DNA of 64,000 nucleotides from Pedobacter faecalis (GTDB lineage Bacteria > Bacteroidota > Bacteroidia > Sphingobacteriales > Sphingobacteriaceae), in NCBI RefSeq assembly GCF_030182585.1, contig NZ_JARXOW010000001.1, forward strand, positions 310,001-374,000, given 5' to 3'. This document shows, in pieces, positions 18,194 through 34,954 of this stretch. Position 1 is the stretch's first letter. The number at the start of each line of letters is the position of its first letter. The position numbers and the translations under genes are program-made. The notes beneath the pieces are model-generated. The model did not search any database. It was not told where the DNA came from and saw only the letters and a program-made list of their open reading frames with translations.

Positions 18194-18310
18194 ACCGATA
18201 ATTAAATCGTAACGATGGTACTTTGTCTAGCCTCATTGTTTAGAGTTAGTTCGCATGGCCCGTTCAAACGGTGGACGAGCGACTACTTCTTTATACTCGG
18301 GCAGATATCA

Positions 18311-18338
18311 GATCCCGCTGGGATTCGAACCCAGGACC
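18311..18338 (-). repeat. Duplicated 3' end of tRNA-Lys (candidate att site)
   Basis: These 28 bases are identical to 34374-34401, covering the 3' acceptor strand and T arm of the tRNA-Lys gene, in the same orientation. The rest of a tRNA is absent here: sequence upstream of the T arm does not fold into D or anticodon arms. A direct copy of a tRNA 3' end 16 kb from the intact gene, on the side its 3' end points to, is how tRNA-targeting elements leave att sites. Confidence 0.75.
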
Positions 18339-18406
18339 CTTGGTGAAATTTTTAGAAGTGCTTAAGCAGATTGATTTAGATGTAACTGCTCGTTCGTGAA
18401 TACCCT

Positions 18407-19321
18407 TTAGTTAAAAGACCTCCTAAAATCCAAAGGCGACATATTCGTCTTCAGCTTAAATAGCTTACTAAACGAGGGCGGGTGTTCAAATCCTAGTTCG
18501 TAGGCGATCTCGCTTATCGATGCTTCCGTTGTCGATAGCTGTTCTTTCGCTTTTTCGATCAGGTGGTTATGGATGTGCTGTTGAGCGTTTTGCCCGGTAA
18601 GAGATCGCAGCATATCGCTTAAATAACTTGCGCTCACGTTTAATTGCGCGGAGAGGTATTGGACGGTCGGAAGTCCCTGGGTTTGTGTTTGGGGCGACTG
18701 AAAATAACCGCGCAAATTATCTTCTACTTTTTGAAGCAAATCGCTGCTTACGGTTTTTCGGGTAATGAATTGCCGGCTGTAGAACCGGTTGGCATAATTG
18801 AGCAGCAACTCAATCTGGGAAATCACCACATCCTGACTGAAATTATCGATTCTGCCTTCCAGTTCTTCTTCGATACTCTCGAAAACAGTAATAATTGTGG
18901 TTTTTTCCTTCTCAGACAAGTGCAATGCCTCATTGATGGAATAGGAAAAGAAGCCGTACGTTTTAATTTTCTTAGCGAGTTCATAACCCAGTAAGAAATC
19001 CGGGTGGAAAAGTAAGGTATAACCAGATTGATCGCTTAGTGGTTCGTGACCTCCTGTGATCTGATTTGGCGAAACGAAAAACATTCCTCCTTCTTCAAAG
19101 TCGTAATAGTGCTGGCCGTATTTGAACTTTCCCTGGAAGTTCATCTTATAGGATATCTTGTAGAAACTTAAGATGTGAGGAGTAGGGAGGTTCTTGAGCG
19201 GAATGGTTCCGTCGGCATTATTTATTAAAGTTACCAATGGGTGCATAGGTGCCGGCATGTCCAGCGCCTTATGCAACCTTGATAAGGAATTAAATCTGTG
19301 GTTAGACATTTCATCCTTCAT
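18407..19321 (-). CDS. AraC-family transcriptional regulator
   Basis: This encodes 304 residues. A cupin-like sensor half (HYYDFEEGGMFFVSPNQI near residue 75) is followed by an AraC DNA-binding domain at about residues 205-304, with the motifs LNVSASYLSDMLRSLTGQ and ISEIAYELGFEHPPSFSKLFK. It follows the alpha/beta hydrolase gene on the same strand with a 9-base gap, so the two are co-transcribed and the hydrolase is the likely regulated function. Such regulators usually bind a small aromatic or sugar-like ligand; none can be named. Confidence 0.87.
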   Translation of the reverse strand: MKDEMSNHRFNSLSRLHKALDMPAPMHPLVTLINNADGTIPLKNLPTPHILSFYKISYKMNFQGKFKYGQHYYDFEEGGMFFVSPNQITGGHEPLSDQSGYTLLFHPDFLLGYELAKKIKTYGFFSYSINEALHLSEKEKTTIITVFESIEEELEGRIDNFSQDVVISQIELLLNYANRFYSRQFITRKTVSSDLLQKVEDNLRGYFQSPQTQTQGLPTVQYLSAQLNVSASYLSDMLRSLTGQNAQQHIHNHLIEKAKEQLSTTEASISEIAYELGFEHPPSFSKLFKLKTNMSPLDFRRSFN

Positions 19322-19330
19322 ATTGTCTGT

Positions 19331-20260
19331 TTATGATTTGCTTTCAATACTGCCTAACGCACCTTCTACGCCATTAAGGCTTTTCTTTGCTTGTTCCCAA
19401 CTCCGATCGTTCGGATCGAAGTTACTTCGAATATACGCAAGAATGGTTTCGCATACAAAGGAAACACGCTCCGGATTTTCATCACTTGTCTCACGGGCAT
19501 CATAACCTGATATGCCACCAAAGATATGTTCTGCGCCAAAAACGGTCAGCAAGTCCTTAGGTCCGGGACTTTGATAATAGGCATCCGCACGCCAGTTGTC
19601 TACATCAGAGAACATGAGGTTTACGTCCTTGTCGCCATTCACAATAAGTGCGGGTAGAGTCATCGTACTGAAATCGCCTGCAGCCAGCACAGGATAGAGC
19701 CCTCTGGCAGCTCCGGTAAATCCTTCGGGTCCGCCAGGTGCGCCCATAATCACACGGGCCTTTAATCTTGGCTCTGCGGCATTCACTATTTTACCTGTTA
19801 CCGGATCAGTTACCTCCATACCGGCCAGCATAGAGACGGTCTGCCCGCCCATAGAATGGCCTACAACGGCAACGTTCGTCTTGTCCACTCTTCCGGTTAA
19901 CCCTGGTACCGTATCGATAATCTCATCCAGATGATCGAGAATAAAGCTGATGTCGGCCGGTCGCGAACTCCAGAACAATGGTGCTTCGGGAAGGGATGGA
20001 GAAAGCGCTAGCGCTTTAGAATTTTGATGGGTAGGCTGGATGACTACAAATCCTTCTGCGGCAAAATAATCTGCCATAGGGCCATAACCTTTGTACGAAG
20101 ACAGAAAGTTAGACGGGCCATGTCCGTGCGAAAGAAGAATAACGGGCAGGTTGTTTCCGTTCGCGGGAACAGAAACTTTCATTTCAAGGTCTACATGACG
20201 GCCGGCAACCGGTAACACAACCGGACTAAAGCTGATGATGGGTGTTTTTGACTGTTTCAT
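19331..20260 (-). CDS. Alpha/beta hydrolase (dienelactone/acetylhydrolase-like)
   Basis: The gene encodes 309 residues from the ATG at 20260. The fold is shown by the oxyanion segment LLSHGHGPSN, the nucleophile elbow VVGHSMGGQT (Ser near residue 138), the acid in LIVNGDKDVN and the histidine in FGAEHIFGG. No signal peptide is seen, so it is cytoplasmic. The large cap insertions resemble platelet-activating-factor acetylhydrolase or polyester hydrolase relatives; the substrate is open. It leads a two-gene unit with the AraC regulator. Confidence 0.85.
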   Translation of the reverse strand: MKQSKTPIISFSPVVLPVAGRHVDLEMKVSVPANGNNLPVILLSHGHGPSNFLSSYKGYGPMADYFAAEGFVVIQPTHQNSKALALSPSLPEAPLFWSSRPADISFILDHLDEIIDTVPGLTGRVDKTNVAVVGHSMGGQTVSMLAGMEVTDPVTGKIVNAAEPRLKARVIMGAPGGPEGFTGAARGLYPVLAAGDFSTMTLPALIVNGDKDVNLMFSDVDNWRADAYYQSPGPKDLLTVFGAEHIFGGISGYDARETSDENPERVSFVCETILAYIRSNFDPNDRSWEQAKKSLNGVEGALGSIESKS

Positions 20261-20655
20261 TTTTTTTAATTTTGATATAGTCAAAGATCATCAGGTCTAA
20301 GCTTCGCGGCATAGCCAAAACGGGGAATTGTATAGCCAAAGTCGGAGAGTCATAAAGTGGCCACCTCATTGCTATTGAGTAGAGAAAAAGCAGGTAATAA
20401 TTAGATAATAAATAGGGGGTTGGTATATCCTTGGTATATCGTTGGCATATGGTTGGTATATCCTTGCTATATCTATTTGATATAGCAAGGATAGATCAAT
20501 GATATCTTAACTATACACTAATTATCCAGTTATTATCTACTTATATTCTAATAACTACCTAATTATTAGTAACTAGGTAGCCAGGATGTAAAAGGATAGG
20601 TGCATTTGTTGCAGGATTAATATTTTTATAATATTGCGTGGCATTCCTTGATTAG
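20261..20655. other. 395-base intergenic region with repeats
   Basis: No gene is supported. Notable parts are the 11-bp tandem repeats and large inverted repeat (20420-20493), and a second inverted repeat with 7-bp arms, CTACCTA/TAGGTAG, at about 20555-20580. The region separates the divergent hydrolase and sigma-factor genes and is AT-rich. Confidence 0.6.
20420..20493. repeat. Five 11-bp tandem repeats running into a 15-bp inverted repeat
   Basis: Five near-identical units (TTGGTATATCC type) start at 20420, 20431, 20442, 20453 and 20464, a period of one DNA helical turn. The last unit becomes the left arm of a perfect inverted repeat: 20459-20473 pairs with 20479-20493 across TATTT. The in-phase spacing would place bound proteins on one DNA face. 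The block lies about 160 bases upstream of the ECF sigma gene. Confidence 0.7.
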
Positions 20656-21267
20656 ATGGGAACAACCTTAGTATACATGATCAGGAAACCCGTTATAGAG
20701 GAAAAAAATCTACTTGTAAGAGTTAGCGAGCGTGACGAGTCCGCTTTCAGAATTATTTTTGATGCCTATCACGCTCAGATTCTCACTTTCGCAAACAAGT
20801 ACCTCAAGTCGCGGCAACTGGCAGAGGAAGTGACCCAGGAGGTGTTCCTCAAGATTTGGAATCTTGGTGATAAACTGAACTCGGTTAATGATCTTGAAAA
20901 TTATCTGCTTACCATTACGCGGAATCGGACGTTCGATATACTGAGACAACTGAAACGGGAAGTGCGCTATGTCCAACCGATAGGGGAGGTGGATGATGTG
21001 CGGGAAAACATTACTGAAGAAAGTATTTTATTGAGCGATACCCGACAGTTGCTGGAAAGGGGCATAGCGTTGTTGCCACCTCAACAGAAGCAAGTATACA
21101 AGCTTTGTCATCAGCAGGGCTTAAAGTATGAGGAAGCAGCTAAAGAACTGGGAATTTCTCCTCAAACGGTACACCGCCACATGAAACTTGCCCTAAAATC
21201 GCTCCGATCTTTTATGGCTAAGCATACTGATTTATCTGTTTTACTGATTATTTTAAAATTATTTTAA
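20656..21267 (+). CDS. ECF RNA polymerase sigma factor (FecI/RpoE-like)
   Basis: The 203-residue product has sigma region 2 at about residues 25-95 (FDAYHAQILTFANKYL, EVTQEVFLKIW) and region 4 at about 140-195 (LPPQQKQVYKLCHQQGLKYEEAAKELGIS, then TVHRHMKLALKSL). An ATG seven codons in (20677) is an alternative start. It precedes a FecR anti-sigma gene by 99 bases and a SusC/SusD pair, the standard outer-membrane signalling unit in which substrate binding to SusC releases the sigma factor through FecR. Confidence 0.93.
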   Translation: MGTTLVYMIRKPVIEEKNLLVRVSERDESAFRIIFDAYHAQILTFANKYLKSRQLAEEVTQEVFLKIWNLGDKLNSVNDLENYLLTITRNRTFDILRQLKREVRYVQPIGEVDDVRENITEESILLSDTRQLLERGIALLPPQQKQVYKLCHQQGLKYEEAAKELGISPQTVHRHMKLALKSLRSFMAKHTDLSVLLIILKLF

Positions 21268-21366
21268 AATAATTGAGTGTGCATTGCCCTTGTGCACATT
21301 CTTTTTACGTCCATCTATTAAATAGCTTTGGCGATTTCGGGCAATTATTGACCCGCACAAACTGAA

Positions 21367-22572
21367 ATGGATCAAAAAAAAATAGAATATCTGCATAAGG
21401 CCTATCTGGAAAACAGCTTGGATCCGGTTGAAATGGCGGAATGGGATGCATTGTTAAAATCTGACCTGGCAGAACAGCCTGTTAAACTATTCATGGAGGA
21501 AACCTGGCGCTCCATTCTTCCTGAAGAACGCATGATGCTGAGTTCTGAGGAGTCTGGAAGGTTATACGACCGCATTATTTCGCAGGCACGTAAAAAGTCG
21601 GTCCGTTTATGGCCAAAAATTGCGGTGGCAGCAGCGGCAGTTGCGTCAATTACTTTAGGCGTTTGGTTTTATACCAGCGATTCCGGATTTCTGAAAAGCG
21701 AACGTGATGGAATGGCTTCCGCAAGCGATATTGCACCCGGAAAAAATAGGGCGACGCTGACTTTGGCTAACGGGCAGACCGTAGCTTTGAGTGATGGCAA
21801 GACTGGGGTGGTGGTCGACCATGGCCTTGTCCGGTACTCTTCCGGGACCCTGTCTTCAGGTTCGCTGAAGGGCGGTACGGACACGGCTGGTCGTGATGTG
21901 GTGCACGCACTAGCTGGCGTCGAAATGCTGAGTGTAGCGACGCCGCGCGGGGGGACATATCAGGTTGTTTTGGCCGATGGTACGCGTGTGTGGCTAAACG
22001 CTGCTTCGTCCCTGAAGTTTCCGTCGAAGTTTATGGCGGCGGAAAGACGTGTGCAAATTACCGGTGAGGCTTATTTTGAAGTCGCTTCGGCATCATTGCC
22101 GGGGCGCATGAAGAAACAACCTTTTATTGTAGAAAGTGCGGGTCAGGAGGTGACGGTGCTGGGTACGCATTTTAACATCAACAGTTATAGCGATGAGTCG
22201 GCCGTGAAGACGACTTTGATGGAGGGGTCTGTGCGGGTTAAATCGGGTACAAACGTTCAGACGATCAGGCCGGGTGAGCAGGTCGTCAATAACGGTGCTG
22301 ATCTAAAGGTCTTGAAAGTGAATACCGCGCTGGTTACAGACTGGAAGGAGGAAGCGTTTAACCTGGACGGGGCAGATTTCCGCGTGGCGATGCGTGAGAT
22401 AGCCAGGTGGTATGATATAGAGATCGTGTACGACGAGAGCGTTCCGCAAGATATTGAGGCCTGGGGCTGGATTTCCAGAAAAAGCAAGTTGTCGTCGGTG
22501 CTGAAACTGATTCAGAATTCGGGTCAGGTTAAATTCAGATTTGAGGGCAAAAAACTATATGTGTATAAATAA
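21367..22572 (+). CDS. FecR-family anti-sigma factor
   Basis: This 401-residue protein has an N-terminal cytoplasmic helical domain (residues 1-75, sigma binding), one membrane segment (about 79-97, IAVAAAAVASITLGVWF), a FecR periplasmic domain (about 190-310, VATPRGGTYQVVLADGTRVWLNA and GEAYFEVAS) and a C-terminal DUF4974-type domain (DGADFRVAMREIARWYDIEI). It should relay a signal from the STN domain of the SusC protein encoded 187 bases downstream to the ECF sigma factor. Confidence 0.94.
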   Translation: MDQKKIEYLHKAYLENSLDPVEMAEWDALLKSDLAEQPVKLFMEETWRSILPEERMMLSSEESGRLYDRIISQARKKSVRLWPKIAVAAAAVASITLGVWFYTSDSGFLKSERDGMASASDIAPGKNRATLTLANGQTVALSDGKTGVVVDHGLVRYSSGTLSSGSLKGGTDTAGRDVVHALAGVEMLSVATPRGGTYQVVLADGTRVWLNAASSLKFPSKFMAAERRVQITGEAYFEVASASLPGRMKKQPFIVESAGQEVTVLGTHFNINSYSDESAVKTTLMEGSVRVKSGTNVQTIRPGEQVVNNGADLKVLKVNTALVTDWKEEAFNLDGADFRVAMREIARWYDIEIVYDESVPQDIEAWGWISRKSKLSSVLKLIQNSGQVKFRFEGKKLYVYK

Positions 22573-22602
22573 CAGGGTGTTAACCATTAAAGCAAACAAA
22601 GA

Positions 22603-22662
22603 ATGAAGAAATTTTACTAGAACCAGCTTGAGAAAAGCAACCAGTTCTGAAAGAACTGGTTG
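22603..22662 (+). promoter_or_regulatory. SusC leader: five-codon frame and perfect hairpin
   Basis: A minimal frame, ATGAAGAAATTTTACTAG (22603-22620), is followed by a perfect hairpin: 22638-22647 pairs with 22653-22662 around TGAAA. The hairpin lies 98 bases before the SusC ATG. It could be an attenuator or mRNA-stability element. Whether the five codons are translated is unknown. Confidence 0.4.
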
Positions 22663-22759
22663 AGGTTTGGCCAAGAGCCAGCTATTAAACCAGAACTAAA
22701 CCGCAATATCCTGTTTCCTGGAAAGATGAAGGATGTTGCTTTAACCAAACGCTAAACAA

Positions 22760-25700
22760 ATGTATCAAATTATTAAGGAAATTGGTATGCCGGAGCGGCT
22801 GTACCATAAATTATGGCGTATCATGCGATTAACCACCGTTTTATTGATAGCCTGTCTGATGCAGGTCAGTGCATCAGGACTCGCACAGCGCATTACTTTA
22901 AACCAACGTAATGTCCCGTTAAGTACGGTACTCACAGAGATCCGCAAGCAAAGCGGTTATGATCTGTATTCAGACGGAAAAACGTTGCCTAAGAACCACA
23001 GGGTGACGGTTGTACTTAGCAATGCTTCTGTGGAGGAAGCCCTCAATGCAGCTTTGAAAGGATTGAACGTCGTTTATAAGATCGAAGGAAACACCATTGC
23101 GGTGCTTCAAAGGCCTTCTCCATCCATCCTGGACCGGGTAATTGCGAAATTTCAATCTATTCACGTTACGGGCAGGGTGGTAAATAGCGACGGCGAGGGT
23201 ATCCTCGGTGTAACGGTGAGTATAAAGGGTAAAAATTATTCGATCATTGCCGGGTACGATGGGAACTTTATGCTGGACGCAGATGAAAAGGACGTTTTGG
23301 TCCTTTCGTATGTTGGCTATAAAACAAAGGAGGTTCCGGTAAAAGAAAAGATGGGCAACATTGTGTTGGAAGCACTTGTTTCTCCGCTCGACGAGGTGCA
23401 TGTAATTGGTTACGGAACAGAGCGCCGACGGGTATCAATTGGCGCTGTTAATACCGTATCTGCAAAAGACATCGAAAACCAACCGGTGATGAACCCGCTG
23501 CAGGCTTTGCAGGGGCTGGTACCGGGCTTAAATATCAACTCAACATCTGGCGCGCCGGGAGCTGCCGTGAGGGTTCAGGTTAGGGGACAAAACTCGTTAT
23601 CGCAAAACAGCAATACCACATTAAAACCGTATGACCAGCCATTGTTCATCATTGATGGCGTGCCTGTAGCCGCCCAGAATACCAATATCAACTCTTTAGC
23701 GTCGCTGGGCGGGTATGATGGAACCATAAACGGCGTAGGAGGCTTTAGTCCGATTAACAGCCTTAACCCGGCAGATATAGAGAGCATTACTGTTCTGAAG
23801 GATGTTTCGTCGACCGCTATTTATGGTACACAAGGTGCAAATGGGGTTATATTGATTACCACTAAAAAAGGCAGGGCGGGGAAAACCAGGGTGCAGGCCA
23901 GCTTCAATTCTGGATTAAATACGGCCACGAGAAAGATCAAACTGCTGAACACGGAGCAATATTTAGCCTACAGGCGGGAAGCATTGGCAAACGATGGCAT
24001 TGATCTTTCTACAGCGGATCCTTTGTCTTACCCCGACCTGCTTCTTTTCGATCAGCAGAAAAACACAGACTGGTTTGAGAAATATCTGGGAGGTACCTCA
24101 CATAACAACGACGGGCATGTAAGTGTATCGGGCGGGGCCGACAGAATGAACTTTCTGATCTCAACGGGCTATACTAAAGCGGAATACAATATTCCGGGCG
24201 ACTTTGATGATAAGCGTTTAACCCTGCACTCGAACTTAAATTATAAATCTTCAGATGATCGCTTCTCGGTAGGCTTTGGCTTTGATTTCAGTCATGAAAA
24301 AAATAATACGGCGGCCTCTGCCAATATCCTGAACACCATCATGGCACCTCCCAATTTCCCGGATCTTGTGGACGCCAGTGGTAATCCGGTCTGGAATTAC
24401 AAGGGGTACAATACAGGTTCCTTTGCACAGTACGCCGCGAATTTAATGCAGCCTAGCGCACTGTCGGTACACAATATGAATACCTCGCTTTCGCTGGGCT
24501 ACCAGATAATCCCCGACCTAAAGTTTAATGTAAACCTGGGATACAACAGGCTTATGAGTGCCGAAGATCAGCGTAGGCCTGCAAGTACCATTAACCCGAG
24601 CAATTTCCCTGCTTCAAAAGCAACGTTTACAGACAATACGTTTGAAACCATAAACGTGGAGCCGCAACTTAACTATCAGCGGAATTTAGGACGAGGTGTA
24701 TTTACCGGTCTTTTGGGGGCAACGTATAAGCAGAATGATATTGAGAGAATTCAGCTCGAGGGAACAAACTATGCGAACGAGGCGCTGTTGGGTTCGATTG
24801 CGCAGGCGGGTACTATTCTGGGCACAGATTCCTATGATCCGTACAAATATATAGGTGTTTTTGCGCGACTTGGCTACGTATACGACCAGCGTTATATTGT
24901 TCAGGTTTCCGGCAGAAGAGACGGGTCAAGCAACTTTGGCCCTGGTCGGCAGTTTGGTAATTTCGGTTCTGTTGGTTTAGGCTGGATTTTCTCGGAAGAG
25001 CAGTTTTTTAAAGGTCCGCTTCAGTTCCTGTCGTACGGCAAATTATCAGCTAGCTATGGTACTGTTGGTACCGACTCAACCTTGCCATATGGCTATCAGC
25101 AATCTTTTTCCGGAAATACTCAGCCCAACTTTCAGGGGATAAAACCATTGTTTGTGGAAAACCTGTACAATCCGGATTATGGATGGGATACTAAGAAATC
25201 ATGGAACCTGGGCTTGGATCTTGGCTTTTTTAAAGACAAGGTGTTGTTGAATGCGAATTATTATCGCGACAGGATCGGTAACCAACTGGTAAATTATACT
25301 TTGCCTTCTCAAACCGGCTTCGGCTCGGTGCTGGCAAATTTCCCGGCCGAAGTTGAGAACAAGGGGCTGGAATTTAACCTGACTTCTAAGAATGTTAACG
25401 GTAAAAACTTTTCATGGAGTACAAACTTTAATATTTCTGCCAACCGTAATAAACTGATCTCGTTTCCTGGACTGGAAGAATCTTCCTATGCGCTTAGATA
25501 TTCCATAGGAGAATCTGTAAACATCGTTAGAGGCTATAAGCTCGCAGGTGTGAATCCGCAGACGGGTACTTTTGAGTTCTATAAGGCGGATGGTACATTA
25601 ACTTCATCTCCTGCATATGGAATACCTTCGCAGGGAGGCGACTTTCAGACCATTGCCAATCTTGACCCTAAGTATATTGGCGGACTTGGGAATACACTTT

Positions 25701-26143
25701 CGTATAAACGTCTGAGCCTGTATTTCTTTTTTCAGTTCCAGCATAAGCAGCAAGAGAACTATCTAAGCAGCGTCTACTCAACAACATCGCCGGGATCTTT
25801 AGCGAATCAGCCTGTTGAGGTATTAGACCATTGGAGAAAACCGGGGGACATTTCTTCTATCCAAAAGCTAACGACCGGCTTCAGCTTTTTCGGGTATAAC
25901 TTCATCAGTTCATCAGGTGCGTATAGCGATGGCTCGTACGCCAGGTTGAGGACAGCAGCGCTGTCTTACATGCTGCCCTCCGGATTTTGTGAGAGACTGG
26001 GTATCTCAGACGCCAAGGTGTATGTTAACGGACAGAACCTCTTTCTTATAACAAATTATAAAGTTGGTGATCCTGAACTGGGCAAGTTGTTCAGTTTCCC
26101 TATCCAGCGGACAATAAATTTTGGTCTTACAATTAATTTATAG
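22760..26143 (+). CDS. SusC/RagA-family TonB-dependent outer-membrane transporter with STN domain
   Basis: The 1127-residue protein has a long signal peptide ending near residue 43 (CLMQVSASGLAQ), an STN signalling domain at about 45-120 (VPLSTVLTEIRKQSGYDLY), a carboxypeptidase-regulatory-like beta domain at about 132-205 (VTGRVVNSDGEGILGVTVSIKG), a plug domain at about 210-380 (LQGLVPGLNI, FIIDGVPV, VLKDVSSTAIYG) and a 22-strand barrel that ends in the usual aromatic-rich strand (TINFGLTINL). It imports a ligand through the outer membrane with its SusD partner. The STN domain ties it to the upstream FecR/ECF pair. The substrate cannot be read from sequence. Confidence 0.95.
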   Translation: MYQIIKEIGMPERLYHKLWRIMRLTTVLLIACLMQVSASGLAQRITLNQRNVPLSTVLTEIRKQSGYDLYSDGKTLPKNHRVTVVLSNASVEEALNAALKGLNVVYKIEGNTIAVLQRPSPSILDRVIAKFQSIHVTGRVVNSDGEGILGVTVSIKGKNYSIIAGYDGNFMLDADEKDVLVLSYVGYKTKEVPVKEKMGNIVLEALVSPLDEVHVIGYGTERRRVSIGAVNTVSAKDIENQPVMNPLQALQGLVPGLNINSTSGAPGAAVRVQVRGQNSLSQNSNTTLKPYDQPLFIIDGVPVAAQNTNINSLASLGGYDGTINGVGGFSPINSLNPADIESITVLKDVSSTAIYGTQGANGVILITTKKGRAGKTRVQASFNSGLNTATRKIKLLNTEQYLAYRREALANDGIDLSTADPLSYPDLLLFDQQKNTDWFEKYLGGTSHNNDGHVSVSGGADRMNFLISTGYTKAEYNIPGDFDDKRLTLHSNLNYKSSDDRFSVGFGFDFSHEKNNTAASANILNTIMAPPNFPDLVDASGNPVWNYKGYNTGSFAQYAANLMQPSALSVHNMNTSLSLGYQIIPDLKFNVNLGYNRLMSAEDQRRPASTINPSNFPASKATFTDNTFETINVEPQLNYQRNLGRGVFTGLLGATYKQNDIERIQLEGTNYANEALLGSIAQAGTILGTDSYDPYKYIGVFARLGYVYDQRYIVQVSGRRDGSSNFGPGRQFGNFGSVGLGWIFSEEQFFKGPLQFLSYGKLSASYGTVGTDSTLPYGYQQSFSGNTQPNFQGIKPLFVENLYNPDYGWDTKKSWNLGLDLGFFKDKVLLNANYYRDRIGNQLVNYTLPSQTGFGSVLANFPAEVENKGLEFNLTSKNVNGKNFSWSTNFNISANRNKLISFPGLEESSYALRYSIGESVNIVRGYKLAGVNPQTGTFEFYKADGTLTSSPAYGIPSQGGDFQTIANLDPKYIGGLGNTLSYKRLSLYFFFQFQHKQQENYLSSVYSTTSPGSLANQPVEVLDHWRKPGDISSIQKLTTGFSFFGYNFISSSGAYSDGSYARLRTAALSYMLPSGFCERLGISDAKVYVNGQNLFLITNYKVGDPELGKLFSFPIQRTINFGLTINL

Positions 26144-26146
26144 CTT

Positions 26147-27541
26147 ATGAAAGCTTTTAGTGTTATCAACAAAATATCGACGGTTGCTATCATTCTGACT
26201 GGACTAGTTGCCAGTTCGTGTAAGAAACTCATAGAAATACCGTCAAATGCAACAAATAAGGTTTCTGCTGAATTCGTGTTCACGGATAGTGCAAGTATCG
26301 TTTCCGCCGTGGCAGGGGTGTACACGAATTTTGGACTGTCTGCCTTCAGCCCGCTATTTGGAAGTGGGGCAGTCACCATATACACCGGACTGACGGGCGA
26401 CGAGCTTACCGTGGGGGCGAGTACCTATACGGGCACGGACTTTTACAATAACCAGATTACGCCAGATAATAGCACCAACAGGTCAATATGGGCTGATGCA
26501 TACAAGAACCTCTATCAGATTAATATTTGCCTAAACGGCATTGAGGGCTCTAATGCGATAAGTTCGAAGTTGAAAAATCAGCTGATCGGCGAGTTGAAGG
26601 TGGACAGGGCACTTTACTATTATTATATGGTTAACCTTTGGGGACCGGTTCCGCTTATCACTTCCACGGATTATAAGGAAACTCAGCGTATGCCGCGGTC
26701 TTCAGTAGAAGATGTTTTTAAGCTGATTATGTCAGACCTGACCGACGCACAGCAGAGATTGACGGCTGAGTATCCTTCTGCTGGTCGGATACGACCAAAT
26801 TTGCATGTGGCGCAGGCGTTATTAGCCAAGGTGTACCTCTACCTCGGTCAGTATCAGAATGCGATTGATGCGTCCAGCAAAGTGATTTCTTCGCCACTAT
26901 ATAGCCTAACAGCGCTAAACAATGTGTTTTTAAGCGGGAGCGAAGAGGCCATTTGGCAATTACCTGCCAATGGCGTCTACTACCAAACGGTAGAGGCGTC
27001 TACGTTTATACCGTATAGCCCAACCGCCCAGCCAAATTATGTGCTTTCTCCGCAGTTACTCGCCGCTTTTGAAAGTGGTGATCCGCGCGTAGCGATCTGG
27101 ACTGGTGTAAACACGGTAGGCAGCGCTACCTATTATTATCCACGTAAATATAAGAATACCAGTGCTGGTCAGACCCCTGCAGAGGATTACATGATTTTTA
27201 GGCTCGCCGACATTTATTTAGTCCGCGCCGAAGCCTATGCGCAACTGGATAAGTTGCCCGAAGCGCTGGCTGACTTAAATAAAATCAGGGATAGGGCGCA
27301 GGACCGCGTTGATATCAGTACAGATTCGAAGGCAACGGCGCTAAGCGCTATTCTTCATGAACGGCAGGTCGAGCTCTTTTGCGAATGGGGAAACAGATGG
27401 ATCGACCTGAAACGTACAAAAATGATAGATGCGGTTCTCGATCCGGTAAAACCATTCTGGAAGAGCAGCGCCGCAGTGTTTCCTGTTCCGCTAGCAGAGC
27501 GGCAGGCCAATCCGGCTTTAGACCAAAACGACGACTATTAA
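26147..27541 (+). CDS. SusD/RagB-family surface lipoprotein
   Basis: This encodes 464 residues, 3 bases after susC. The signal peptide ends in a lipobox (LVASSCKKL). The TPR-rich SusD fold is indicated by KNLYQINICLNGIEG, LKVDRALYYYYMVNLWGPVPLI, VAQALLAKVYLYLGQY and the conserved C-terminal IFRLADIYLVRAEAYAQL and LHERQVELFCEWGNRWIDL. SusD lids the SusC pore and binds the ligand on the cell surface. Confidence 0.95.
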   Translation: MKAFSVINKISTVAIILTGLVASSCKKLIEIPSNATNKVSAEFVFTDSASIVSAVAGVYTNFGLSAFSPLFGSGAVTIYTGLTGDELTVGASTYTGTDFYNNQITPDNSTNRSIWADAYKNLYQINICLNGIEGSNAISSKLKNQLIGELKVDRALYYYYMVNLWGPVPLITSTDYKETQRMPRSSVEDVFKLIMSDLTDAQQRLTAEYPSAGRIRPNLHVAQALLAKVYLYLGQYQNAIDASSKVISSPLYSLTALNNVFLSGSEEAIWQLPANGVYYQTVEASTFIPYSPTAQPNYVLSPQLLAAFESGDPRVAIWTGVNTVGSATYYYPRKYKNTSAGQTPAEDYMIFRLADIYLVRAEAYAQLDKLPEALADLNKIRDRAQDRVDISTDSKATALSAILHERQVELFCEWGNRWIDLKRTKMIDAVLDPVKPFWKSSAAVFPVPLAERQANPALDQNDDY

Positions 27542-27565
27542 TATTTGACAAAACTTATAAAGAAC

Positions 27566-29728
27566 ATGAATATAACTAAAATTGGGATTTCCTTGTGTGC
27601 ATTAGCTTTACCGCTATTCGCTGCCGCACAAGGTCGGCAGTATGTGGTAGAGGGCAAGATCGGTAAACTAAATCCCCCTGCCAAGGCTTATTTGTTCCTG
27701 GCAAATGGAATTGATTCTACGGTAATAACCAAGGGGTCCTTTAAATTTACCGGCAACGTTGATGGTGCAATGCCTGCGCATATCATTATCAACAAAAAAG
27801 GTACGGGCTTACAATCTAATCAGATTGGAGGTAGCCCCTTTACGTTTAACTTTTATATAGAACCGGGGAAGATATCCATCACCAGTCCGGATTCGCTACC
27901 AAACGCTAAACTTACTGGTGGACCCTTAAATATGGACTATGTCAGGTTGAAGGCGCAATTGAGACCGACGGACAAAGCCTTGGGTGATCTTGTTGATAAG
28001 CTATTGAATGCGACACCGGAAACCAGGAACTCAAAAGCGTTCAATGACAATTTCCAGCAAGAAAGTTCTGCTATCGGCCTTCGGCAAAAGAAGATATGGC
28101 TGGATTTTATAAAAAACAATCCCAATTCATTGATGAGTTTAATGGTACTAAAGTCCTATTCGGGCGTTAGCTCCCGTTTGTTATACAATTCGATACCGGG
28201 CAGCCCTGCACTCGAGGAGGTGGACTCACTGTACCATACACTCGGTGAGCAGGTACGCCTGAATCCGCTGGGGAAAGATTTCGGCGATGTATTAGCGAGG
28301 CAGAAGTACATGAAAATAGGTGCTATTGCACCGGACTTTTCTCAGACTGATGCTAATGGCAAGCTGGTTTCCCTAAAGGATTTTAAAGGCAAATATCTTT
28401 TGATAGATTTTTGGGCGAGCTGGTGCGGGCCGTGCCGGGCAGAAAATCCTACAGTAGTTAAAGCCTATCATAAATATAAAGCTAAGGGTTTTGATGTGTT
28501 GGGTGTATCGCTGGATTTTGCGAACGGCAGAGAAGCATGGCTCAAAGCTATTGAAGACGATCAGTTGACCTGGACGCAAGTCACGGATTTAAAAGGCTGG
28601 CAGAACAAAGTTGCGGATTTGTACATGGTTAGAGCAGTTCCTCAAAATTACTTATTGGATCCGGACGGAAGGATTATTGGAATTAACCTGAGAGGGGAGG
28701 CCCTGGAGAACAAATTACAAGAAGTTCTGGGGGCGGTTTCATCTGTCGACCTTGATGCTGATACATTCGAATACGTCGTAAAGGGAAAGTTGCCAAAAAG
28801 CTCGATACCTAAGCGTGCTTTTTATGTGTATACACATGTTGATGGCACTATAGCTACCGACTCTACAGATGTTAAAGACGGTGTGTTTTCGTTTAAAGCG
28901 TCTACCAATAAAAAGGAAAGTTTAGGATTTGTGAGAGTCTCCGATCTGGTGAAAGGTAAATCTTCCACAAGCGGAAAGTTTATCCAGTTTTATACGGATT
29001 CTACGACCATTACCTTGACCAGCGCCGGTACTATTGATCAGGCAAAAATTGCCGGAGGAGAGCTAAACAGGGATGAGCAAGCACTCGCAGAACTCGTTAA
29101 AAAAGAGCCAGAAGCAGGCCATTTGAAGTTCCTCCAGTCGCACCCGAACTCCCTGATCAGTATAAATGCGCTTCAGAAATTGCGGGAAAGTTCACCTGAC
29201 ATCGATGTTGAATCTCATTTTAACTCCCTATCTGCCCGTGTGCGCGCATCGGAAAAAGGCAAAGCTTATGCCGCTAAGATATCGGAGTGGAAAAAGGTGA
29301 TGATTGGCGCTTATGCTCCGCAGTTTACCGCAGCTGACACCGCAGGCAAGCCAGTGTCTTTAAAAGAATTTAAAGGAAAATATGTACTGCTGGATTTTTG
29401 GGCAAGCTGGTGTCCTCCTTGTCGTGAGGAAAGTCCGTTTTTAAGAGCTGCGTTGAACAAATATGGTAAAGATAATTTTATCATATTGGGTATTTCATTA
29501 GATAATCCCAGAACCGGTAAGGAAGGCTGGATAAAAGCGATAAAAGATGACAAGCTCACCTGGCCACAGGTATCAGATTTAAAATACGAGAATGAGGTAG
29601 CCAAGTTGTATTCGGTAACTTCCATACCACAAAACTTCCTGCTGGATCCGGATGGAAGGATTATCGCCACAAATCTTAGGGGGGAGGGGGTTGACCGGAA
29701 ACTCGGGGAACTTTTGAAGCCTTTATAA
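27566..29728 (+). CDS. Secreted protein with two tandem DUF4369-TlpA redoxin units
   Basis: The gene encodes 720 residues from the ATG at 27566, with a signal peptide ending near residue 22 (LPLFAAAQG). The protein is an internal duplication. Unit one (about 25-395) has a beta-rich DUF4369-like region, a helical linker and a thioredoxin fold with WASWCGPCRAE. Unit two (about 405-720) repeats the plan with WASWCPPCREE. Both end with the same signature, FLLDPDGRII (YLLDPDGRII in unit one) then NLRGE. Most family members have one unit. It follows SusD by 24 bases and is likely in the same transcript, suggesting redox handling of an imported or digested substrate. Confidence 0.9.
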   Translation: MNITKIGISLCALALPLFAAAQGRQYVVEGKIGKLNPPAKAYLFLANGIDSTVITKGSFKFTGNVDGAMPAHIIINKKGTGLQSNQIGGSPFTFNFYIEPGKISITSPDSLPNAKLTGGPLNMDYVRLKAQLRPTDKALGDLVDKLLNATPETRNSKAFNDNFQQESSAIGLRQKKIWLDFIKNNPNSLMSLMVLKSYSGVSSRLLYNSIPGSPALEEVDSLYHTLGEQVRLNPLGKDFGDVLARQKYMKIGAIAPDFSQTDANGKLVSLKDFKGKYLLIDFWASWCGPCRAENPTVVKAYHKYKAKGFDVLGVSLDFANGREAWLKAIEDDQLTWTQVTDLKGWQNKVADLYMVRAVPQNYLLDPDGRIIGINLRGEALENKLQEVLGAVSSVDLDADTFEYVVKGKLPKSSIPKRAFYVYTHVDGTIATDSTDVKDGVFSFKASTNKKESLGFVRVSDLVKGKSSTSGKFIQFYTDSTTITLTSAGTIDQAKIAGGELNRDEQALAELVKKEPEAGHLKFLQSHPNSLISINALQKLRESSPDIDVESHFNSLSARVRASEKGKAYAAKISEWKKVMIGAYAPQFTAADTAGKPVSLKEFKGKYVLLDFWASWCPPCREESPFLRAALNKYGKDNFIILGISLDNPRTGKEGWIKAIKDDKLTWPQVSDLKYENEVAKLYSVTSIPQNFLLDPDGRIIATNLRGEGVDRKLGELLKPL

Positions 29729-29741
29729 CGTAATTCTTTTT

Positions 29742-29790
29742 CCTGCTATAGCTTGTTATTTAACTCTATTTAATAACAGGCTTTAGCAGG
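29742..29790. terminator. Long hairpin between convergent genes
   Basis: Arms 29742-29760 and 29772-29790 pair over 19 bases with two imperfect positions around an 11-base loop. It lies between the redoxin and serine hydrolase stop codons. No strong T-tract follows on either strand, so it may act as a bidirectional terminator or 3'-end stabiliser. Confidence 0.5.
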
Positions 29791-29804
29791 ATTGCAGGAA
29801 TGGC

Positions 29805-31247
29805 CTAATTGGTCTTCAACACCTTGCGGAAAACGATGTTCCTCACGCGTGGAGTGGTGAAACTTATTGCGGAAATGTTGCCGAGGTCATCCCTCAGTAT
29901 TTGTAGCGTCACTTTAGAATCCTGAATTCGGAAATTGCCGTCAGAGCTGGTTGCCAATTTAAATACTTCATTTGATTTCCGATGGATTTCCAATTGACCA
30001 TTATTGAGCTTAATGTCAAGTTCTGCCTGTACTTCGTCTGAATAATAATGACCCGTGACGGATTCCAGCGGAATCGGATCGATGGCATTTGGAACTGCGA
30101 CCACCTCAGGCATTTTCAACGGTTTTTGTGGCGGTTCCTGCCTCGCTTCTAACTTGACTTCCGAAGTTTTTTCCGGTAATAGCAGTTGCCTCAATTCATT
30201 TAGGCCGTCGGGCTTACCGTCAAAGGCCGAAGTGTTGGCCAGCCATGCAATGGAAAGCCCGGTTTCCGGATAATATTCCAGGGAACTGCGGTAAGCGGCC
30301 GTGGCGCCATCGTGGATGTATACTTTCCAGTTCCTGATCTGAACGATACGCAGACCTGCAGCGTAATCATTCGTTTGTCCATCATTCAATGGCGACCGCG
30401 AAATCTGCTTTTGCAGCAGCCCCGGTTTGCCCAGTCTATCACCGGTATAGTACTTGTTCCATTTTAACAGATCTTCGGCTGTTGTAAGCAAACCGCCGCT
30501 GCCATACACTTCTTCGTTAGGCATGTCAGGTAGAAAGCTGCTCTGATCTGGGGCATAGGCGATGCTTCTATTGCCGATGATCTCATTTGCATTCGTCCGC
30601 CAGCGCGTGTGCGACAGTCCGGCTGGTTTGAAGATAAAACGGCGTGTGAATTTTTGCAGGGTTTCTCCGCTCACGCGTTCGGCGATGATGGCAAGCAGCA
30701 CGTAATTGGTATTGCTGTACATAAATTCCGCTCCGGGCGAGTGGTTCAGGCTCTGGCGGGAGAGCAAATCAAGTATGTCCTGATTCCTGTAAATTTTGCT
30801 GCCCCTTGGCGCATCGGAAGGTGATAGAAGCGCCCAGCAGTCCTTAAGACCACTGGTGTGTTGCATCATTTGCCTCAAGGTAAGCTTCGAAGGATAGAGC
30901 GGTAGTTCGGGCAGGTATTTGTGTACGTCTTCATCCAGGGATAACTTCCCCTGCTGCTCCAGCAGGAGTATGGAGGCCGCCGTGAATTGTTTGGACACGG
31001 ATCCGGCTTCAATCAATGTCTGCGGGGACATTGCTTTTTGGTTTTCAAGATCTGCCATACCGAAAGCTTTCGAGTAAAGGAGCTGTCCGTTTCGGCTGAT
31101 TGCGATTTGACAACCTGGGCGATCTTTTTTGTAAATGTCGAAAATCTGATCAATCCGCTTCGCGGTATCCTGCCAGTCCTGAGCCTGGGTGCTTAAACGT
31201 ACCTGGCAAAGCAGTAATAAGATCAGTAAGATGTTCTTCATCTTCAT
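29805..31247 (-). CDS. Secreted serine hydrolase, beta-lactamase/PBP class C family
   Basis: This 480-residue protein has a signal peptide (MKMKNILLILLLLCQV to about residue 22). The catalytic SVSK lies near residue 85 (AGSVSKQFTAAS), the tyrosine motif YSN near 175 (FMYSNTNYVLL), and a histidine/glycine motif HDGA near 315. The last 100 residues form a separate beta domain often found in this family. It is convergent with the SusCD-redoxin unit and therefore has its own promoter. The substrate may be a D-amino-acid peptide or an ester; nothing in the sequence decides. Confidence 0.88.
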   Translation of the reverse strand: MKMKNILLILLLLCQVRLSTQAQDWQDTAKRIDQIFDIYKKDRPGCQIAISRNGQLLYSKAFGMADLENQKAMSPQTLIEAGSVSKQFTAASILLLEQQGKLSLDEDVHKYLPELPLYPSKLTLRQMMQHTSGLKDCWALLSPSDAPRGSKIYRNQDILDLLSRQSLNHSPGAEFMYSNTNYVLLAIIAERVSGETLQKFTRRFIFKPAGLSHTRWRTNANEIIGNRSIAYAPDQSSFLPDMPNEEVYGSGGLLTTAEDLLKWNKYYTGDRLGKPGLLQKQISRSPLNDGQTNDYAAGLRIVQIRNWKVYIHDGATAAYRSSLEYYPETGLSIAWLANTSAFDGKPDGLNELRQLLLPEKTSEVKLEARQEPPQKPLKMPEVVAVPNAIDPIPLESVTGHYYSDEVQAELDIKLNNGQLEIHRKSNEVFKLATSSDGNFRIQDSKVTLQILRDDLGNISAISFTTPRVRNIVFRKVLKTN

Positions 31248-31298
31248 GGGTTTCTTTTATCAATAGGCTAAGTTACTCAGAAAACGCATGTTTATGAG

Positions 31299-32219
31299 TT
31301 AAAGCTTCATCTTTAAACCGATGGAAGCATATGGAGAAACAGAAAAATGATAGTCATTGTCTCCTGCAAATACACCTTTCAAAGTTCTGTCGCTGTATGA
31401 CGCAGGACGAAATAGGTTAAGTCCCGCCATACCCGTTAAGGATGGCCCTTTTTTACCAAGCTTTACTTCGGGGCGAAATCCCGTAACAATGTATTGATGA
31501 GAGAATATAACGTCTTTACCATCCTTTTCCAATAGGGCTACCTGTCCGTTCATTTCAAGCGCATATGATAATTTGAATCTTTCGTTGACAGCATAACCTA
31601 TGGACACATCCAAGCCATCACCCAATTCAATATTCACATCGTATTTTCCCTCACGCCTCCAATTGACGTAAACGGCCGGAAATACCATCGGATATCCCAG
31701 AGAACTGTTTATAGCGACACCTCCTCCGATATCAAGATTGGGATTCAGATGACGGATAAAAACAATGCCCCCGCTGCCAAGCACATTTTTGAAACTGATT
31801 TCGGTAAAATCGGTGGACTGCGTAAATATCCCCATTCCGACACTTGCCCTCATGGACCATTTGTCGTTTAAAGGACGTAAATGATAAACGCCAAACTGTA
31901 AGTTCATGATTTCGGAGACCATATGTTCCGAAAAGTTTTGGTTATGCAAGGAGACGTATGCCCCTCCAAAACCAATTCCCCAAGCGGTAGGACGGTTATG
32001 CTCATTTGACTTCATGGACAAGGGCATATTGAAAGTTCCCTGATAAACCATGGCCGAGCCTTTAGCATCACCTATTTTTTCTCTTGGTTTTTCGCCGGGA
32101 GGCAAATAGTAGTAGCCCGAATTTCCGATGTACTCTGTCTTGAAGGATACTTGCTGTGCTTTTGCCTCCAGACATAAAAGCATAACCCATGTTGCAGAGA
32201 GTAATGATATTGTCTTCAC
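31299..32219 (-). CDS. DUF6268-like outer-membrane beta-barrel protein
   Basis: The product is 306 residues with a signal peptide ending near residue 21 (LCLEAKAQ). The rest alternates hydrophobic and polar residues in short strands and ends in a barrel-closing pattern (SPYASIGLKMKL). The general plan fits DUF6268 outer-membrane proteins, which are often encoded beside LytTR regulators. It lies 140 bases downstream of the response-regulator gene on the same strand, so it is a probable target or partner of that two-component system. Confidence 0.7.
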   Translation of the reverse strand: MKTISLLSATWVMLLCLEAKAQQVSFKTEYIGNSGYYYLPPGEKPREKIGDAKGSAMVYQGTFNMPLSMKSNEHNRPTAWGIGFGGAYVSLHNQNFSEHMVSEIMNLQFGVYHLRPLNDKWSMRASVGMGIFTQSTDFTEISFKNVLGSGGIVFIRHLNPNLDIGGGVAINSSLGYPMVFPAVYVNWRREGKYDVNIELGDGLDVSIGYAVNERFKLSYALEMNGQVALLEKDGKDVIFSHQYIVTGFRPEVKLGKKGPSLTGMAGLNLFRPASYSDRTLKGVFAGDNDYHFSVSPYASIGLKMKL

Positions 32220-32359
32220 GATTTTAAAATGTATTTATACTTATTTATTTCTTTGGGCAAAAGAACGGCGAACGCTGCGATCAAGAAATCTCTAAGCGAT
32301 AGACTTTAGATTTTGCTAAATGAAGTGCAATATAAAGGAGATGGATTTTCTGTATCAAG

Positions 32360-33115
32360 CTATTGTAGGATACCGTCCATCCATTTGAGAAAGTCTGGTA
32401 CTCGCATCCGACTAACCAAGACCTCATGTGGGCATTCCGGCGAAAAGGAAAGTTTAAGACGGCTGTTAAAGTATTTTGCAACATTTTCAATGGCTTTGAC
32501 ATTCCCGATGCAATTACGCGACACCCGGAAAAACAATCGGCCATCAAGCTGTTGATCCAATTGATCTAAAGTATAATTAATGATATACCGCCTGTCGTTG
32601 AACGTGTGGAGGAAGATGACCCCGTCTTCACTGTAAAAATGGGCAATATCCTTGGTTTCAATATAATGATAGTTTTCACCTTTGGATATCAGGAAACGGT
32701 TTTTGGTCTTGAGCGATAGTAGTTGCTCAAAGTTCTTCGGATCGCTTTTATAAGATCGGCTATAGAATATATGCTCAAATTTGTTTAGCGCTGTTTCCAG
32801 TTCACTTTCATCAAATGGTTTTAGGAGGTAATCGATACTGTTCAGTTTAAACGCCGCAATAGCATGTTCATCGTAAGCTGTTGTAAATATAACAGGTGTT
32901 GTAACATCTACATGGCTAAATATTTCGAAGCAGTTGCCATCTGCAAGACGGATATCCATAAGAATAAGATCGACAACAGATTCTTTCAGAAAACCAATGG
33001 TATCTATGACCGTTTTCGTTTGCATTTCCAAGAGATAGTCTGGACGTAACTTCATCATCATACGTTTCAGTTCTTCGTATGCAAACCGCTCATCTTCTAC
33101 GATCAGGTATTTCAT
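32360..33115 (-). CDS. LytTR-family response regulator
   Basis: This encodes 251 residues. A receiver domain fills 1-120, with the acidic pair EDE at about 7-9, the phosphoacceptor Asp in LILMDIRLADG near residue 55, the TTAYDEHA segment and the lysine in DYLLKPFD. A LytTR DNA-binding domain covers about 145-250 (FYSEDGVIFLHTFNDRRYIINYTLDQL and FFRVSRNCIGNVKAI). The gene overlaps the upstream histidine kinase by 4 bases (ATGA), so the pair is co-translated. Targets may include the DUF6268 gene. Confidence 0.93.
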   Translation of the reverse strand: MKYLIVEDERFAYEELKRMMMKLRPDYLLEMQTKTVIDTIGFLKESVVDLILMDIRLADGNCFEIFSHVDVTTPVIFTTAYDEHAIAAFKLNSIDYLLKPFDESELETALNKFEHIFYSRSYKSDPKNFEQLLSLKTKNRFLISKGENYHYIETKDIAHFYSEDGVIFLHTFNDRRYIINYTLDQLDQQLDGRLFFRVSRNCIGNVKAIENVAKYFNSRLKLSFSPECPHEVLVSRMRVPDFLKWMDGILQ

Positions 33116-34137
33116 GACTGTATGTAGGGGATTTTTACAATAAACAATTCCTCGGTATGATCAACCATAACTTCTTTAGCATAGATTTTATACTGCCTGG
33201 TAATGTATTTTAGCCCGATTCCACCTTTATCAGCACTGCCCGATGGCTGGATGTTGTTTTCGACTGTGATATGTTCGTAATCAATATTGATTGTGATATT
33301 TAATGTTGATTCTTCCGTTGCGATATTGTGCTTGAATGCATTTTCTATAAGCAGCTGCAGCGTTAGGGGGATAATCTTATGCTGTTTATTGGGCGATATT
33401 TTGTTTACCGTAAAAGTAAAGGAGTTCTCGAATCTCATCCGCATGAGGAATATATACGAATCCAAAGCATTCAATTCTTCCGTAATGGACACTATCGGTT
33501 GTTGCGTGAGGGACAGTACATAGCGATAGTTTTTTGAGAGAGCTTTCGTGAACTTGTTGGCATTTTCCTGATTTATATATATCAAAGATGACAATACATT
33601 AAGGGAATTAAACAGGAAATGAGGGTTTATCTGTGATCTCAATGTCTCGTGCTGAAACAGCAGAACCTCACGTTTGGCTTTTTCTGAATCGGCTATCGCT
33701 TTCTGTTCAGACTGGAAATAATGGATCAACTCAAAGACCAACAGAATAGGAATATTTGTTGACATGGCAAAAGCAAACTTAACGTGGAACGGGGGCAGTC
33801 CCTCCTGGGGAATGCGGAATACGTCATAAATCAGAAAATTAAATGCCCATAGTAATATCAGGCATATCAAGGTTATCCCCATAATATCTGCCATAATTCG
33901 CAAGAATATATTCTTTGAATAAGGTAGGTTTTTATTTAAAAACCTTAATAAGGTGTAATCGGCTATACACATAGCAAAGATTACCACATAATGGGCTGAT
34001 AGCTGTATATGAAAATTTCGCCATAAATCTTCTTTCATTAAAACAATGGTAAAAAGCATTTGACAAAGGGCATATACCAGTGTCGAAAAAAAGAAGATTG
34101 TGAGTCTCTTTATATTAATGTTTTTTATTCGAATCAT
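33112..34137 (-). CDS. LytS-type membrane sensor histidine kinase
   Basis: The gene encodes 341 residues from the ATG at 34137. Four membrane segments lie in residues about 10-150. The kinase core (PF06580 type) follows: the phosphoacceptor region LRSQINPHFLFNSLN near residue 175 and the N-box-like LQLLIENAFKHN near 258, then GIGLKYITRQY as the G-box. No large sensory domain is present, so it probably senses through its membrane helices. It pairs with the LytTR regulator, which overlaps it by 4 bases. Confidence 0.9.
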   Translation of the reverse strand: MIRIKNINIKRLTIFFFSTLVYALCQMLFTIVLMKEDLWRNFHIQLSAHYVVIFAMCIADYTLLRFLNKNLPYSKNIFLRIMADIMGITLICLILLWAFNFLIYDVFRIPQEGLPPFHVKFAFAMSTNIPILLVFELIHYFQSEQKAIADSEKAKREVLLFQHETLRSQINPHFLFNSLNVLSSLIYINQENANKFTKALSKNYRYVLSLTQQPIVSITEELNALDSYIFLMRMRFENSFTFTVNKISPNKQHKIIPLTLQLLIENAFKHNIATEESTLNITINIDYEHITVENNIQPSGSADKGGIGLKYITRQYKIYAKEVMVDHTEELFIVKIPYIQS

Positions 34138-34328
34138 TGTCCAAAAATATATTTTAGGTATCAAGGATGTGTTTTATTTATTCCGACTTTCCGATGAACT
34201 TCATTATTTAAGGGATGAATTCAAGGTGTCGCACTGAATGGTTGGGATTTGATGGAACAAGACATCGAACTCTGAGGCTAGGTTCTGCTATTGCTTTTAT
34301 TTGTCAGATTAACAGGAAATTGGAGGGT

Positions 34329-34367
34329 AAAAAAATGGGACAAATCCATATATTCAGATTTGTCCCA
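34329..34367 (-). terminator. Rho-independent terminator of tRNA-Lys
   Basis: Arms 34336-34346 and 34357-34367 are perfectly complementary (11 bp). On the minus strand they are followed by seven T residues. It lies 6 bases downstream of the tRNA 3' end. Confidence 0.85.
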
Positions 34368-34372
34368 AGACG

Positions 34373-34445
34373 TGATCCCGCTGGGATTCGAACCCAGGAC
34401 CACTACATTAAAAGTGTAATGCTCTACCAGCTGAGCTACGGAATC
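34373..34445 (-). tRNA. tRNA-Lys (anticodon TTT)
   Basis: This 73-nt cloverleaf has acceptor GATTCCG pairing with CGGGATC (one G-U pair), the D arm GCTCAGCTGGTAGAGC, an anticodon loop CTTTTAA with anticodon TTT, and the T arm CTGGGTTCGAATCCCAG. CCA is not encoded. A TATCTTTG promoter lies 20 bases upstream, and a strong terminator follows. Its 3' 28 bases are duplicated at 18311-18338. Confidence 0.96.
34374..34401 (-). repeat. tRNA-side copy of the 28-bp direct repeat
   Basis: Identical to 18311-18338. It spans the acceptor 3' strand and T arm of tRNA-Lys and would be the tRNA-proximal att site of a 16-kb island. Confidence 0.75.
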
Positions 34446-34465
34446 ATTCCCCTTTTGAGGAGGTG

Positions 34466-34473
34466 CAAAGATA
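34466..34473 (-). promoter_or_regulatory. tRNA-Lys promoter element
   Basis: TATCTTTG on the minus strand, 20 bases upstream of the tRNA 5' end, matches TAnnTTTG. Confidence 0.6.
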
Positions 34474-34648
34474 GAATTAAATGTTTATTTTGCTATAAAA
34501 ATTTTAAAAAGTTTGATGTCGGTTTGTATGTGCTGTATTGGCATCGCTTTGCAGGCGGGAATTTTTACAAAACGATGTTTGCAACTGAGTTGTTATACTG
34601 TATATTTGTTAGCAAGAGCAACCAATTATAAGTTAAACGACGAATACT

Positions 34649-34954
34649 ATGCTAAGTAAAATAGCAGGCATTTTCTTGTTGTTATCATTTGTTTTGGCAA
34701 AAGGAGTAGATCTGATTGCTGATTCTGGTTTGCCTGCTTACGCCTATCATGTAGACCAGTCTTCGGACGAGGTTCCTGATGAGGATTCTAAAGAAAATAA
34801 ACTGACGGAATATCCTGATGAACTTTATGCTGAGGTGGCGGCTACCGTCCCCTTTGTTGTTCTGTTTTCAACCTTTGATGGACGGGGTAATCCGAATACC
34901 CTGACGGTTCATCTTTCTACGTCTTGTCCGCCTCCGGACGGTGCCGCTGTTTAA
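34649..34954 (+). CDS. Small exported protein of unknown function
   Basis: This 101-residue protein is not recognised. Residues 1-19 (MLSKIAGIFLLLSFVLAKG) form a signal peptide or membrane anchor. The middle is strongly acidic (QSSDEVPDEDSKENK), and the end is a beta-like segment rich in Thr and Pro (LTVHLSTSCPPPDG). It lies 52 bases before the S74-like gene on the same strand. Coding is supported by the hydrophobic start and normal composition, not by homology. Confidence 0.6.
   Translation: MLSKIAGIFLLLSFVLAKGVDLIADSGLPAYAYHVDQSSDEVPDEDSKENKLTEYPDELYAEVAATVPFVVLFSTFDGRGNPNTLTVHLSTSCPPPDGAAV

Follow-up and report, generated by a model that had tools for sequence, protein, structure and literature searches.

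The 64,000-nucleotide stretch of the Pedobacter faecalis genome analysed here (contig NZ_JARXOW010000001.1, positions 310,001 to 374,000; hereafter the window) carries, some 16 kb from an intact tRNA-Lys gene, an isolated 28-nucleotide (nt) copy of the 3' end of that gene. An initial annotation proposed the interval between the two as a candidate integrative island that was acquired as a whole and whose integrase may have been lost or supplied in trans. From our point of view, the region is better described in another way. Judging from the comparisons presented below, the 16 kb is a mosaic of modules and not one island, while the fragment may well represent a decayed attachment scar within a hotspot of gene exchange, with the 16 kb not being the cargo of that scar; we give this overall reading about an even chance. 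The observations that carry it are that integrases and repeat fragments occur at tRNA-Lys genes in relatives, that the block has a mosaic make-up, and that the homology between two strains of the species breaks off at the edge of the fragment.

Results

The fragment and its intact counterparts

The repeat itself stands as first described. Between the fragment and positions 34374-34401 within tRNA-Lys no. 1 (Table 1), 28 of 28 bases agree, with no mismatch and on the same strand, the two copies lying 16,063 bp apart, and none of 100 dinucleotide shuffles produced a copy, which places the repeat beyond chance. The repeated bases represent the variable loop, T-arm and acceptor of the tRNA's 3' part. 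The two copies agree as far as acceptor base 72 and then diverge, with an A following in the tRNA and a T in the flank of the fragment.

It was likewise correct that the first copy is isolated from any other tRNA part. ARAGORN found no tRNA near 18311, and the 50 bases 5' of the fragment align to the 5' half of the tRNA no better than shuffled sequences do (P = 0.44; the same test is borderline, at P = 0.058, in G073, a second genome of the species). Rfam returned only sub-threshold matches for the fragment region (E = 0.056 and 0.71), and none in G073. The idea that the fragment is a decayed full tRNA gene was rejected on these grounds. An assembly artefact can be dismissed as well, since the fragment is also present in G073, with two substitutions over 18313-18338 (a 25-nt match at 96%). 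A genome-wide scan for further copies, as had been suggested, returned one (at most 3 mismatches; 3.63 Mb in 6 contigs, 96% complete). As this copy lies within a second intact gene, tRNA-Lys no. 2, the fragment could derive from either gene alike.

Strain homology ends at the fragment

Window and G073 align collinearly, in pieces that are 95.5-98.1% identical. Both strains carry the block (18313-34521), the proposed integration site thus being occupied in G073 as well, and the homology ends at the outer edge of the fragment, at most 2 nt from its 3' edge. In place of the strain-specific segment that follows outside, G073 has 1.32 kb with two other open reading frames (ORFs); the segment with its thioredoxin-like ORF was not found in the G073 stretch by tblastn, and when 18194-18345 was searched in 119 genomes of the genus, only the 28-mer part matched beyond its own locus among the matches listed. 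Directly beside this segment, the ORF at 16157-16462 matches just the C-terminal part of a 275-amino-acid (aa) G073 protein, and by this comparison the gene looks truncated here.

At tRNA-Lys no. 2, the strain homology stops one base past the gene. Behind it (C1:446745), 35 bp in the present genome correspond to 2.59 kb with two ORFs in G073, in which no integrase was seen. When the 28 breakpoints between the strains were placed randomly in intergenic DNA (20,000 draws over 193 kb; a post hoc test, with 16 of the 28 breakpoints within the intergenic mask), two of the three tRNA-Lys 3' edges were touched (within 2 nt) in 0.015% of the draws (P = 1.5e-4), the breakpoint comparison excluding about 8 kb (374001-382009). 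Differences between the strains that are about as large or larger are found away from tRNA genes too, for example at 405373-420033 (14.7 kb), which is absent from G073 and whose ORFs, by eye, resemble ABC-transporter and SusCD-type genes.

Identity between the strains at four-fold degenerate sites is uneven along the block (AraC 91/106, SusC 447/522, SusD 220/220, kinase 113/120, next to 331/343 in the AsmA-like gene), a pattern in keeping with separate histories of its parts. The susD gene (26147-27541), identical to that of G073 at the protein level too and adjoining the far less similar susC, is by this measure a recent exchange tract between strains. In the GH99-like gene (35475-36782), only 126 of 177 such sites are identical, far fewer than in its neighbours, and an allele replacement is likely.

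The modules of the block recur apart

Relatives of the alpha/beta hydrolase, the DUF6268 protein and the redoxin protein were searched in 145 Pedobacter genomes, 143 of which are other than the window genome and G073. The hydrolase of module 1, matched at 1e-50 in 29 of the 145, has relatives of at least 82% aa identity in 8 of the 143 (two with an internal stop), and the AraC gene adjoins it in all eight. The nucleotide similarity of this module ends near the AraC stop and about 60-80 bp ahead of the hydrolase start. The pair lies beside tRNA-Lys in G101, 32 kb away from it in G020, far from it in G141 and on other contigs in G016 and G004; these distances cover the five genomes named, not G054, G084 and G068. 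Eight further Pedobacter genomes share the nucleotide borders of this two-gene module, in surroundings that differ, which gives it the appearance of a frequent traveller. Between its hydrolase and the sigma factor gene of module 2, the window shows four repeats spaced by 11 bp and an imperfect palindrome of 43 nt (20418-20521), and a similar stretch occurs in G073.

The DUF6268 protein of module 3 has relatives of at least 77% in 4 of the 143 genomes, with the regulator and the kinase close by in all four. For the redoxin protein of module 2, a single relative was found at 1e-120 (1/143), in G083, where it stands beside SusC, SusD and a weaker FecR. Among 16 module loci of other species (L230, L286-L300), only L300 holds relatives of two modules, both of them distant (AraC 58% and DUF6268 53%, 5.4 kb apart). 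Since the modules recur apart, the 16 kb does not appear to travel as a unit, and the proposal that its genes were acquired together finds no support.

The orthologous tRNA site in other species

The same tRNA site can be recognised in G101 and G141, both of which have relatives of the S74-type and GH99-like proteins at the same place. Behind the tRNA, the window and G101 share the terminator hairpin (88% over 121 nt, 34329-34449), while the 3' flank in G141 differs from that of the window. About 4.5 kb behind its tRNA, G101 has the hydrolase/AraC pair and, about 0.2 kb past AraC, a PAS protein. Homology to G101 spans 9258-11345 in the window and restarts 60 bp from the fragment, at 18398. The border of the proposed island is therefore crossed by genes of this tRNA site, because the PAS gene lies outside the fragment here and beside the AraC/hydrolase pair in G101. 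Together with the shared terminator and with the fact that the strain-variable side is the one outside the fragment, this speaks against the 16 kb as an island behind the tRNA.

Compared with G101, the AraC/hydrolase pair reaches a four-fold-site identity of 0.69-0.71, above that of the PAS (0.40), GH99-like (0.33) and AsmA-like (0.29) genes, and the pair was thus probably shared after the species split. The AsmA-like protein (51637-54069) has its best matches among the 143 other genomes in G140 and G141 (65%). Other species show no synteny at the block, and a search for window genes beside tRNA-Lys in G003, G005, G007, G008, G015, G016, G017, G021 and G022 gave three weak matches (36-50% identity) at the thresholds applied.

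Integrases and fragments at tRNA-Lys in relatives

That tRNA-Lys 3' ends serve as integration sites holds for the genus. In the relatives fetched, 12 of 34 tRNA-Lys copies are followed within 250 bp by the start of an integrase frame in the same orientation (nine long and three short frames; a 35th copy, with just 6 bp downstream, was left out), and in a later, overlapping set from outside this species 15 of 46 copies have an integrase; as the genomes were partly picked for extra fragments, neither count is a rate for the genus. All seven tRNA-Lys integrases scanned contain Arm-DNA-bind_5, Phage_int_SAM_5 and Phage_integrase domains, and in one complete case (L216) the tRNA is followed by an integrase and, 12.35 kb on, a 23-nt repeat. 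The tRNA-Lys 3' ends are hence true integrase targets in these relatives. In G013, G019 and G082, the 5' flanks of tRNA-Lys form orthologous sets (aligned pieces at about 81-96%, extending up to 5 kb), and the 3' sides mostly share just an integrase end, at times between non-orthologous sites. Each of these three genomes has at least five tRNA-Lys loci (L301-L318, L216-L221), with changing 3' sides that hold integrases.

Besides the window fragment, 13 non-tRNA matches to the tRNA-Lys 3' end were found in relatives, and with a nearly complete tRNA (L315) set aside, 12 fragments were compared. All 12 carry an arm motif before the tRNA-identical part (a variant in L228), run through A73 and have a terminator behind them (detected by script in 11 and by eye in L217). 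These isolated fragments look like attachment scars. A terminator was also considered as the mark of an unoccupied tRNA; this use was dropped, since integrase-bearing sites have terminators too (15/15), and the terminator is used as evidence solely in being shared with G101.

Table 1. Features of the window and of its surroundings (window positions, except where marked C1)
Feature	Position	Strand	Remarks
Intact tRNA-Lys(TTT) no. 1	34372-34445	(-)	ARAGORN
Isolated 28-nt copy of tRNA-Lys 3' end	18311-18338	(-), tRNA sense	In G073 with 2 substitutions
Intact tRNA-Lys no. 2	C1:446671-446744	(+)	About 102 kb right of no. 1, opposite orientation
Terminator hairpin directly behind tRNA-Lys no. 1	34327-34371	(-)	Common to orthologous site in G101
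Strain-specific segment outside fragment	16463-18312	(+)	1.85 kb, thioredoxin-like ORF 16604-18193
Module 1	18398-20343	(-)	AraC-type regulator 18407-19321, alpha/beta hydrolase 19331-20284
Module 2	20656-29728	(+)	Extracytoplasmic function (ECF) sigma factor, FecR, SusC, SusD, double-thioredoxin protein
Beta-lactamase-family serine hydrolase	29805-31247	(-)	
Module 3	31287-34224	(-)	DUF6268 protein, LytTR response regulator, histidine kinase
5' side of tRNA-Lys no. 1	34649-36782	(+)	101-aa protein, S74-type protein, GH99-like protein
PAS protein outside proposed island	9242-11344	(-)	G101 relative directly adjoins AraC/hydrolase

Composition of the block

The composition check suggested for the interval gave an ordinary picture. 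Against a background of 40 pieces from 400 kb of the genome, the guanine-cytosine (GC) content of the block is 0.444 compared with 0.468 (standard deviation 0.025), and its tetranucleotide distance is average, with 19 of the 40 pieces as far or further; its Markov-corrected correlation falls within the lowest 10%. The DUF6268-LytTR part (31287-34224) alone stands out mildly (GC 0.389, P = 0.04). A foreign composition of the 16-kb block was therefore rejected.

Discussion

We favour the reading in which an integrase that targeted the 3' end of tRNA-Lys left the 28-nt fragment and was subsequently lost. The 3' side of tRNA-Lys no. 1 would then be a zone of gene exchange, in which modules with separate histories might have been exchanged mainly by recombination in flanking DNA and without an integrase. 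In this species, the swapped DNA is that just outside (left of) the fragment, while the tRNA in the window keeps the terminator it has in common with another species. Of the island proposed in the initial annotation, the use of tRNA-Lys as a target, the scar-like nature of such fragments and the missing integrase are retained by this reading, and the joint acquisition of the 16 kb as one element is not.

Several points weigh against a scar. As already noted in the initial annotation, no integrase is visible: a model built from five tRNA-Lys integrases gave no match at E 1 in the window, tblastn gave nothing significant, and Pfam scans of 49 of the 59 window ORFs of at least 90 aa detected no recombinase family. 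Nor did this model give a match at E 1 in the stretches searched of G073 (100 kb), G101 (99 kb) and G141 (81 kb). The first 210 bp behind tRNA-Lys no. 1 lead into the histidine kinase gene, and a short reverse frame at about 18224-18300, considered as the end of an integrase, was dropped as nothing similar was found. There is, further, no second fragment in the window, and the one present has neither the arm motif nor A73 nor a following terminator; without the hallmarks of the relatives' fragments, it may be of other origin. On the block side (18339-18365), 7 of the 22 bases adjoining the fragment differ between the strains, although the DNA further in is about 96% identical, and neither this nor the altered fragment of G073 is explained by a scar. 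Lastly, the breakpoint at the end of tRNA-Lys no. 2 could result from selection on the gene alone.

The absence of these hallmarks would suit a fragment that originated, independent of any integrase, as a leftover or stray duplicate of tRNA-Lys through ordinary recombination or decay, and so would the many tRNA-Lys copies of several Pedobacter genomes and the 5' side of the G073 fragment, whose alignment to the tRNA is a little better than that of most shuffles. We nevertheless consider this origin rather unlikely, as the 5' side in the window has no tRNA likeness, a strain breakpoint falls on the sharp 3' edge of the fragment, and all 12 relatives' fragments compared are of the attachment type.

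It is also conceivable, but in our opinion unlikely, that a different, 7-kb insertion (11346-18338) between the PAS and AraC genes has its right end at the fragment. These genes are about 0.2 kb apart in G101 and 7 kb apart in the window, the homology to G101 stops at 11345 and resumes 60 bp from the fragment, and the interval shows low GC (0.411 and 0.399; low tail 0.085 and 0.080) and strain-variable small genes. However, the left end lacks a repeat of the fragment, an integrase was not found either, and the homology edges are also gene ends, so that the adjacency in G101 may be secondary. The lower four-fold-site identity to G101 of PAS than of AraC/hydrolase, moreover, indicates that they did not move together.

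Read against the attL/attR geometry of tRNA-integrated elements, a single island in tRNA-Lys no. 1 (cargo 18339-34371, the fragment as attR, the integrase lost) is hardly probable: a 28-nt direct repeat in the correct orientation, a target used in the genus and a block carried by both strains would fit it, but the terminator common to G101 occupies the place where attL should hold element DNA, the fragment comes without terminator, arm motif and A73, the modules recur apart, genes belonging to this tRNA site lie on both sides of the proposed border, the composition is ordinary and no integrase was found in the window.

Returning to the scar in a hotspot of exchange, one could speculate beyond it that in this species the 3' end of tRNA-Lys, its isolated 28-nt copy included, acts as a live junction, and that small, ordinary modules lacking an integrase of their own are swapped there, perhaps with an integrase supplied in trans. 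This idea is based on two of the three tRNA-Lys 3' edges in 193 kb being strain breakpoints within 2 nt, and we hold it to be very doubtful.

Genomic islands integrated at tRNA genes, of the Islander/tRNAcc type, are characterised by a tRNA, an integrase and a displaced tRNA fragment (PMC6917214). The window resembles them in its intact tRNA with a displaced 3' fragment in the same orientation and in the mosaic accessory genes beside the tRNA; it differs in that it has no integrase, that an empty site was not found in any strain or species compared, and that the DNA between tRNA and fragment does not behave like one unit. With the tyrosine-integrase elements at tRNA-Lys in Pedobacter (e.g. L216) it has the target in common, namely the T-arm/acceptor end. 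In those elements, however, the integrase frame lies about 100-290 bp behind the tRNA, and their fragments, with an identity over 20-26 nt, have a conserved arm motif and precede a terminator, whereas the window has none of these. Literature searches on tRNA-Lys islands in Bacteroidetes and on genomic islands in Pedobacter, with subscription journals mostly outside their scope, led to another genus only. In Tardiphaga, an operon near tRNA-Lys has been described (PMC7701988).

Overall, the present analysis indicates that a perfect repeat of a displaced tRNA end, which commonly serves as the hallmark of an island, can adjoin DNA other than the island, and that a second strain and an orthologous tRNA site alter which side of such a repeat appears mobile. 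In the Pedobacter genomes fetched, tRNA-Lys further emerges as a target that integrases use repeatedly.

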